Source: a bacterium | GTDB lineage: Bacteria > BMS3Abin14 | Direction of reading: 5' to 3' | Assembly (NCBI GenBank): GCA_029210545.1 | Contig: JARGFV010000022.1 | Span: 1-30,110 of the forward strand | Length of the DNA: 30,110 nt | Shown: piece after piece, positions 4,025-29,376 of the stretch | Layout of the letters: each line of letters opens with the position of its first letter | Numbering within the stretch: position 1 is the stretch's first letter | Translations under genes and position numbers: made by a program | Notes under the pieces: model-generated | The model's database searches: none | What the model was told of the DNA's origin: nothing | The model's input: only the letters and a program-made list of their open reading frames with translations

Positions 4025-4192
4025 TCAACTTTGACAGGGTCGCAAAAAGTCCAATCCGGGACTTTTCGCTCAACGGAAAGGGAAAAGCGTCGTTTTCCCT
4101 TTCCTTACAAATCAATGACTTACAGTGTGAGTCATTGATTTGGGCGCCCCGCGCGGGGCGCGTTGATGACTTTTTGCGAAGTCATCAACTTT
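4025..4192. mobile_element. MITE-like multi-hairpin element, copy 1 (with flanking 8-bp repeats)
   Basis: The core 4033-4184 is flanked by tcaacttt at 4025-4032 and 4185-4192, as expected for a target-site duplication. Terminal inverted repeats are tcgcaaaaagtc (4040-4051) and gactttttgcga (4168-4179). Five consecutive stems are visible: 4045-4052/4059-4066; 4075-4086/4093-4104 (12 bp); 4109-4120/4130-4141 (12 bp); 4144-4150/4155-4161 (7 bp, loop gcgc); and 4162-4172/4179-4189 (11 bp). The first and last stems are mutually exclusive with pairing of the ends. It encodes no protein. A near-identical copy lies at 27923-28091. It resembles a non-autonomous transposable element or REP/BIME-like unit, but I do not recognise a named family. 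Confidence 0.75.
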
Positions 4193-27922: not shown

Positions 27923-28091
27923 TCAAAATTGACAGGGTCGCAAAAAGTCCAATCCGGGACTTTTTGCTCCACGGAAAGGGAAAAGCGTCGTTTTCCCTTT
28001 CCTTACAAATCAATGACTTACGGAGTGAGTCATTGATTTGGGCACCCCACGCGGGGTGCGTTGATGGACCTTTTGCGAGTCCATCAAAATT
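27923..28091. mobile_element. MITE-like multi-hairpin element, copy 2 (with flanking 8-bp repeats)
   Basis: The core 27931-28083 is flanked by tcaaaatt at 27923-27930 and 28084-28091, different from the flanks of copy 1. It starts gacagggtcgcaaaaagtcc, like copy 1. The same five stems occur: first 27940-27950/27957-27967 (11 bp); fourth 28042-28048/28053-28059 (7 bp, loop acgc); fifth 28061-28069/28079-28087 (9 bp). Several differences from copy 1 are paired changes that keep the stems. It separates panB from panC and carries no gene. Confidence 0.75.
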
Positions 28092-28158: not shown

Positions 28159-29010
28159 ATGAAGATAATAACGACGATAAGCCAAATGCTGGCCCACTCC
28201 TCCCGCCTCCGCGACGAAGGCGACCGGATCGGGTTCGTCCCCACCATGGGCTACCTCCACGAAGGGCACCTGAGCCTCATGCGCCGGGCGCGCAATGACA
28301 ACCATGCCCTCGTGGTCAGCATCTTCGTCAACCCCACCCAGTTCGGCCCGAACGAGGATTACGACGCCTATCCGAGGGACCTGGAAGAGGACACCTCCAT
28401 GCTCAGGGAGGTTGGATGCGACGTCCTTTTCACACCGACCGTGGAAGAGATGTACCCGGACGGCAGCGCCACCACCGTTTCTGTGGCGGCATTGACGGAT
28501 AACCTTTGCGGCGCGTCCCGGCCCGGGCATTTCGACGGGGTCACCACCGTGGTCAACAAGCTTTTCAACATCACGCGGCCCCACCGGGCCTATTTCGGGC
28601 TCAAGGACTACCAGCAGTATCTGGTCATCAGGAGGATGGCGGCCGATCTCGACATGGACGTCGAAGTCATCGGGCTGCCGACGGTCAGGGAGCCGGACGG
28701 GCTGGCCATGAGCAGCCGCAACGCTTACCTGTCCGCGCGTGAACGGGAGAGCGCTCTCGCCCTGTCCCGTTCCCTGGAGATCGCCAGGGAGATGGTTGCC
28801 GAAGGGATCATGGATCCATCCGTTATCAAGAAAAAGGTGATCGAGATGATCGATGAGCAGCCCCTGCTGACCATCGACTACGTCAACGTGGTTGACGCTG
28901 AAACCCTCGCACCGATAGATGCTATTGATAAGCCCGCCTTACTGGCCATGGCGGTCAGGGTGGGACCTGCGAGACTTATTGACAACACTGTGCTGCTGGA
29001 AGACGGTTGA
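28159..29010 (+). CDS. panC: pantothenate synthetase
   Basis: ATP-dependent condensation of pantoate and beta-alanine. ATG 28159 begins the family-like MKIITTISQM; a GTG 24 bases earlier lies inside the heptad repeat and is unlikely. Length is 283 aa. The nucleotidyl-transferase HIGH-type motif is MGYLHEGHLSL (H34 and H37), with FVNPTQFGPNEDYDAYPRD, the GLKDYQQ stretch and the KMSKS-like AMSSRNAYL. Only a weak GAG precedes the start. Confidence 0.95.
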   Translation: MKIITTISQMLAHSSRLRDEGDRIGFVPTMGYLHEGHLSLMRRARNDNHALVVSIFVNPTQFGPNEDYDAYPRDLEEDTSMLREVGCDVLFTPTVEEMYPDGSATTVSVAALTDNLCGASRPGHFDGVTTVVNKLFNITRPHRAYFGLKDYQQYLVIRRMAADLDMDVEVIGLPTVREPDGLAMSSRNAYLSARERESALALSRSLEIAREMVAEGIMDPSVIKKKVIEMIDEQPLLTIDYVNVVDAETLAPIDAIDKPALLAMAVRVGPARLIDNTVLLEDG

Positions 29011-29027
29011 TCATTACGCCAATAATT

Positions 29028-29107
29028 GTCATCGCGCCTGGGAAAGGCGCCCGGATCGATGACCGGCAAAAGCAGCCGCGCCTGGGAAAGGCGCCCGGAT
29101 CGATGAC
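29028..29107. repeat. 31-bp direct repeat, two copies, each able to form a hairpin
   Basis: A 31-base unit beginning cgcgcctgggaaaggcgc is identical at 29033-29063 and 29077-29107 (period 44). Inside each copy gcgcc pairs with ggcgc. In the first copy gtcatcg (29028-29034) and cgatgac (29057-29063) can close the structure. It lies just after panC and leads into the 81-bp tandem repeat. Confidence 0.8.
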
Positions 29108-29127
29108 GGCCAAGTATGTCAGCGATC

Positions 29128-29360
29128 CGTGAGGAAAGGAAAAACCCCGCTTTTTCCTTTCCGTTGAGCCAAAGTCTCGCACAGACTTTGGTGATTATCA
29201 GCAGTCTCCGTGAGGAAAGGAAAAACCCCGCTTTTTCCTTTCCGTTGAGCCAAAGTCTCGCACAGACTTTGGCGATTATCAGCAGTCTACGTGAGGAAAG
29301 GAAAAACCCCGCTTTTTCCTTTCCGTCAGCTGAAAGTCCCGCACGGACTTTCAGCCCTAT
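29128..29360. repeat. 81-bp tandem repeat, three units, two hairpins each, upstream of panD
   Basis: Units start at 29128, 29209 and 29290. Each has a 12-bp hairpin ggaaaggaaaaa/tttttcctttcc with loop ccccgc (first at 29133-29162). A second hairpin with loop cgcac follows: ccaaagtct/agactttgg in units 1 and 2, and gctgaaagtcc/ggactttcagc in unit 3 (29329-29355), where both arms changed together. The first hairpin resembles the second stem of the MITE-like element. The 81-base period leaves an open frame in register with panD, but no product is recognisable. The last unit ends just before the panD ribosome-binding site. Confidence 0.8.
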
Positions 29361-29376
29361 CAACAGGAGAGTTAGG

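Follow-up and report, generated by a model that had tools for sequence, protein, structure and literature searches.

An apparently new family of hairpin-rich MITEs in an uncultured bacterial family, probably mobilised in trans by an IS1182-like transposase

Bacterial MITEs are described with size variants, direct repeats and an intergenic placement (PMC10969869), and they may resemble their autonomous partners chiefly in the inverted repeats (PMC3852290). Chunjie, a MITE of Geobacter uraniireducens, is summarised as 178-235 bp long, with 38 fuller copies plus 57 partial ones in a single species (PMC10969869). In the IS1182 family of IS, some members are tied to palindromic (stem-loop) targets; IS1272 replaces its target stem-loop and is reported without target duplication (PMC5678879).

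The element described here, of which two copies lie in the 30,110-nucleotide stretch of DNA that was analysed (the window), shows, at the level of sequence, the features that define a MITE. It is short, carries no transposase gene and is present in many copies, with terminal inverted repeats, a target-site duplication and insertional polymorphism. No paper naming the element was found in the literature search. Within the reach of the searches, both the element and its conserved interior of five hairpins appear undescribed, and it would represent a new family of a kind already known. The features of the two copies in the window are as follows.

4027..4032, + strand: left target-site duplication AACTTT of copy 1, its 6-bp length set by genome-wide flank statistics
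4033..4186, + strand: MITE copy 1, 154 bp, GACAGGG...AAGTCATC
4033..4052, + strand: left terminal inverted repeat GACAGGGTCGCAAAAAGTCC of copy 1
4042..4069, + strand: hairpin 1, its 3' arm repeating the inner end sequence in inverted form (from folding and the pairing alignment)
4075..4104, + strand: hairpin 2, arms GGAAAGGGAAAA / TTTTCCCTTTCC (from folding and the pairing alignment)
4108..4142, + strand: hairpin 3, arms CAAATCAATGACTTAC / GTGAGTCATTGATTTG (from folding and the pairing alignment)
4144..4161, + strand: hairpin 4, arms GCGCCCC / GGGGCGC (from folding and the pairing alignment)
4165..4186, + strand: hairpin 5 and right terminal inverted repeat, GATGACTT / AAGTCATC (from folding and pairing counts)
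4187..4192, + strand: right target-site duplication AACTTT (6 bp) of copy 1
27925..27930, + strand: left target-site duplication AAAATT (6 bp) of copy 2 (from the empty site in G002)
27931..28085, + strand: MITE copy 2, 155 bp, with the right-end variant GATGGACC..AGTCCATC
28086..28091, + strand: right target-site duplication AAAATT (6 bp) of copy 2

By direct comparison, the two copies are ~94% identical, and both lie outside genes, copy 1 in the spacer between what we take, from the translations, to be dprA and topA, and copy 2 in that between presumed panB and panC. An earlier note on this DNA had reported two near-identical non-coding cores with an interior of consecutive hairpins, and both observations hold, the window copies folding in this manner with z values of -7.5 to -10.6 and none of 200 shuffles being as stable. 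The number of two, however, is merely what the window contains, as the genome has many more matches (see below). In an Rfam search, no family matched the element, and the sole match was a tRNA. A tRNA gene is located on the minus strand of the window at positions 288-371, where it adjoins an inverted repeat at 211-316.

The boundary of the element was determined using 115 copies with both flanks, taken from about ten genomes, in which the left and right flanks were compared at each position with those in shuffled pairs. Agreement exceeded that of the shuffled pairs at right-flank positions 3-8 only and was 0.73/0.74 at positions 5-6, as compared with 0.30/0.27 after shuffling. The first two right-flank bases, 'TC', showed no excess (0.51/0.52 versus 0.51/0.54) and are therefore the right end of the element, the duplication thus being 6 bp in length. 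Flanking hexamers were identical in 59 of the 115 copies, as compared with a mean of 3.6 and a maximum of 11 in shuffles, whereas exact repeats of 7 bp were found in six copies and of 8 bp in none. Hence, of the copy-specific 8-bp repeats that had been interpreted as a target-site duplication, the duplication is real and copy-specific, but the 8-bp length is rejected by the per-position statistics and by the lack of any exact 8-bp repeat in favour of 6 (to 7) bp with the consensus AANNTT. The target approximates TCAANNTTGA, and TC precedes the hexamer at 24 of the 59 sites; it is because the target often has TC at this position that both window copies seemed to be flanked by 8-bp repeats. The uncertainty of the exact boundary, attributed earlier to the tcaa shared by the flanks of both copies, is resolved in the same way. 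Terminal inverted repeats had been recognised from the window alone and are indeed present, but the true ends are 20 bp long (GATAGGGTCGCAAAAAGTCC and GATGGACTCGCAAAAAGTCC in the 115 copies) and the element terminates in TC. Under the corrected boundary the ends are symmetric, the left being GA[T/C]AGGGTCGCAAAAAGTCC and the right, read inward, GATGGACTCGCAAAAAGTCC or GATGACTTCGCAAAAAGTC.

The core was searched against the whole genome and relatives, as the earlier note had proposed. In its own genome (2.72 Mb, 241 contigs), a sequence search scored 40 copies at 93-100% identity. A pattern for the junction of hairpins 3 and 4, with up to three mismatches allowed, matched at 196 places (105 forward and 91 reverse) and its reversed control at none; 196 is an upper figure, as many of the matches are situated at most 120 bp from the start of a contig, which indicates that the repeat breaks the assembly and that some copies may have been counted twice. 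Among the 40 relatives searched, the element was found in 10 of the 11 belonging to the same family, at up to 96% identity, and in none of the 29 outside it. When 84,980 species genomes were scanned for exact 20-mers, matches were confined to six MAG assemblies (CSMAG_1715, bin582, SZUA-204, SZUA-178, PFL40 and ZodW_Metabat.265). The density of the element reaches one copy per 14 kb, and length variants of ~50, 118, 165 and 173 bp have the ends in common and differ in their hairpins.

Minimal elements of ~50 bp, in which the two ends are folded as one hairpin, were seen at two loci of the relative G004 (L222 and L223). A second subfamily of 118-120 bp, with the same ends and another interior, is represented in the own genome (L018 1663-1782, G000:C8) by a copy directly behind a full copy and ahead of an apparent chorismate synthase gene. 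Upstream of panD, the window contains at 29010-29370 an array of related hairpin modules in reverse orientation, consisting of an 81-bp unit repeated three times in tandem (29126-29368) and a 37-bp unit present twice at a spacing of 44 bp (29033-29113), which looks like hairpins 1-2 and 4 of the MITE multiplied. At a further locus (L216, G004:C6:59950-61250), a 240-codon minus-strand frame lies between two fragments of the element and is possibly an insertion into it or cargo borne by it.

Sites without the element were looked for among the relatives, as had also been proposed. The panB-panC spacer of G002 is empty and reads GAATAATTTTATGTTTCAAAATTCC, with one copy of the target sequence, as compared with TTTCAAAATT-[element]-AAAATT in the window. 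The same spacer of G004 includes its own insertion, differently placed and oppositely oriented, and that of its congener G009 has none there. The topA insertion of the window is absent from all seven relatives with a readable spacer (G001, G003, G004, G007, G008, G009 and G011), G004 having a separate element elsewhere in this spacer. When the flanks were joined, a reading frame stayed open across 60 codons to either side of the junction at 12 of 97 sites, as compared with 61% of 2,989 control positions, which indicates that the copies are mainly intergenic. Related elements were observed inside an apparent ribosomal-protein operon of G004 (L217, G004:C6:28650-29750), in the apparent infA-rpmJ and rpsM-rpsK spacers, and operon-internal copies are thus tolerated even among essential genes. 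The many copies, the copy-specific duplications seen on alignment of their flanks, the empty site and the presence or absence of insertions among relatives support the proposal of a non-autonomous mobile element made in the earlier note. The two patterns it had named as speaking against mobility, copies generally without duplications and flanks fixed in every relative, were both looked for, and neither was seen.

Pairing within the hairpins was examined in an alignment of 65 copies from about ten genomes. Standard pairs were present in 92.9% of the 3,183 pair cells, and pairing fell to about 52% when the partners were slid by one base. Changes on both sides were found for 17 base pairs in 93 cells, a number reached in none of 500 shuffles (mean 34), with the shuffle counts ignoring kinship among copies. 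Hairpin 5 exists in two compensating versions, GATGACTT/AAGTCATC and GATGGACT/AGTCCATC, with 501 of 520 pairs kept. Across genera, compensatory changes have preserved the hairpins. As judged by the about equal frequency of G-T and A-C cells (96 and 111, respectively), no strand is favoured, and the data suggest that what is maintained is a row of DNA palindromes and not a single RNA. The same pattern could arise if copies are transcribed in either orientation or if palindromes are corrected in the course of replication.

In search of a mobiliser, 12 genomes of the family were investigated for transposases of the ISAs1, RAYT, IS256 and DDE_Tnp_1 families. Only one of the DDE_Tnp_1 loci examined, located in the own genome (G000:C1), has MITE ends on both sides, and it includes a 531-codon frame with the 5' end GACGGCATCGCAAAAAGT and the 3' end GATGGACCCGCAATTAGT about 1.67 kb apart. 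The outer flanking hexamers of this IS, AATATT and AACCTT, are AANNTT-like and not identical to each other, and AACCTT is common to an adjacent MITE. The encoded transposase contains Pfam DUF772 and DDE_Tnp_1, and its best NCBIfam match is IS1182 (NF033551), which at 116 bits falls short of the curated cut-off (270 bits), the copy having an internal deletion. Several of its annotated plasmid homologues, all remote (36% or less), are named IS1182. Two relatives have this 5' end, with no mismatches, ahead of a homologous gene: G009 (GACGGACTCGCAAAAAGT) and G007 (GATGGCTTCGCAAAAAGT, with AAGGTT as the hexamer at its flank). The G000 transposase is without about 75 residues that G007 has, including the segment RAGVEATMSYLNRKTGVKRLRVRG, which looks as though it holds the catalytic glutamate; the G007 gene has a frame change near its end and is split over contigs, and in G009 the match ends at residue 178. 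No intact transposase with MITE ends was found among the 12 family genomes, and no IS1182-like gene was found in seven genomes with clear copies of the element, including G003 with its many near-identical copies. Multi-copy IS are often missing from MAGs. The MITE and the G000:C1 IS have only the ~18-bp ends in common, and ends paired 0.75-2.2 kb apart in G004 and G009 were only those of neighbouring separate copies or of copies split by unrelated genes. The search for a full-length relative carrying a transposase and the same ends, advised earlier, gave a candidate partner in the IS1182-like IS, in defective copies only. In view of the matching ends, the AANNTT-like flanks and the recurrence of the 5' end in two relatives, this IS, now defective, is likely the source of mobility in trans. 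A short non-coding element with a similar end, TTTT-GATGGCTTCGCAAAAAGTCC, and another interior was observed on three IMG/VR viral contigs (L246 4634, L247 1817 and L248 6235), which suggests that ends of the MITE type are used more widely.

Movement of the MITE by another, unseen transposase with the same ends, the IS1182-like IS being a mere relative or another passenger, would be in keeping with the failure to find an intact IS1182-like gene, with the lack of such a gene in most many-copy genomes, with the restriction of the likeness between MITE and IS to their ends, and with the similar end on an unrelated short element in the phage contigs. However, in three genomes the IS agrees with the MITE in its ends, its boundary and the flanks it prefers, the IS1182-like locus is alone among the DDE_Tnp_1 loci examined in having ends on both sides, and the IS256 and ISAs1 searches gave no gene with MITE ends, making such an agent unlikely. 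ISAs1 was rejected as the mobiliser as no gene was found in any of the 12 genomes, and IS256 as it is absent from the own genome and the genes in three relatives have no MITE ends.

RAYT-like genes are present in 10 of the 12 family genomes and the element is palindromic, intergenic and high in copy number, as would be expected of a REP/REPIN-type repeat that depends for its movement on a RAYT, a Y1 tyrosine transposase. However, the RAYT loci have no paired MITE ends around the gene, the sole locus with an element (L133) having an ordinary complete copy nearby, and the genes are dissociated from the element in that G001 has two RAYT matches and no element and G007, with its many elements, has no RAYT match. 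Y1 transposases are not expected to generate 6-bp duplications, which are present here with identical hexamers in about half of the copies. This explanation is therefore rejected as highly improbable. The stability of the hairpins, the placement of copies between genes and the compensatory changes seen across genera, together with copies between apparent ribosomal protein genes (L217), could also be reconciled with a vertically inherited structured RNA, or a terminator or regulatory element, in fixed spacers with flanks that match by chance. Such an origin is refuted as a complete explanation by the copy-specific duplications, the empty site and the occupancy that differs among relatives; the G-T and A-C counts, which favour no RNA strand, and the lack of an Rfam match also speak against it, and it is given almost no credence. 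Single copies may have been secondarily co-opted.

The element is thus most probably a MITE with 20-bp ends that is mobilised in trans by an IS1182-like transposase, produces an AANNTT duplication and retains its palindromic interior as DNA. A DDE transposase acting in trans would recognise the 20-bp terminal inverted repeats and excise or copy the MITE, which would then insert at AT-rich intergenic TCAANNTTGA sites, a 6-bp staggered cut giving rise to the AANNTT duplication. The transposase would be supplied by the IS1182-like IS with the same ends (GATGGNNTCGCAAAAAGT), a defective copy of which survives in the own genome. Pairing in the interior palindromes has been preserved through compensatory changes, most probably at the level of DNA. 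The copy number, ends, duplications, empty site, intergenic bias, compensatory changes and an IS with matching ends are direct observations, from which we infer mobilisation of the MITE by this IS, the chemistry of cutting and joining, and any benefit that the hairpins may confer. It is a speculative extension that extruded DNA hairpins, being equal on both strands, might help the IS1182-like transposase to find, copy or re-target the element, which would tie the MITE to the stem-loop-dependent transposition of IS1272. The element accounts for a dominant repeat in a little-known family of uncultured bacteria, one that also breaks contigs, and supplies a clean set of at least a hundred insertions with a defined target. 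Given the compensatory changes, it becomes testable whether the hairpins of bacterial MITEs are selected, for mobility or host tolerance, or are kept by palindrome correction in replication.

The element is similar to Chunjie in being non-coding, mostly intergenic and size-variable, with terminal inverted and direct repeats and dozens of copies that can occupy the interior of an operon, but is set apart from Chunjie as summarised there by its length of ~150 bp, its up to ~200 copies and its family-wide occurrence (PMC10969869). Like the ERIC, Correia and QMITE-type MITEs, it forms high-copy intergenic palindromes that fold into stable stem-loops and occur as variants of different size and as truncated, REP-like versions (PMC10969869), whereas these occur in other taxa and the element here has a row of separate covarying hairpins and a 6-bp AANNTT duplication. 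With the REP/REPIN sequences, the known ones of which are moved in trans by RAYT, it shares the nature of a high-copy extragenic palindrome (PMC3116915, PMC2817692) but differs in its terminal inverted repeats and target duplications, with no link to the RAYT genes that these genomes carry. A tie to the IS1182 family is suggested by the partner transposase, which fits the IS1182 profile best, and by the palindromic targets of some family members; nevertheless, the score of this transposase, 116 bits, lies under the cut-off of 270, and the element leaves a 6-bp duplication, so that its transposition is not as described for IS1272.
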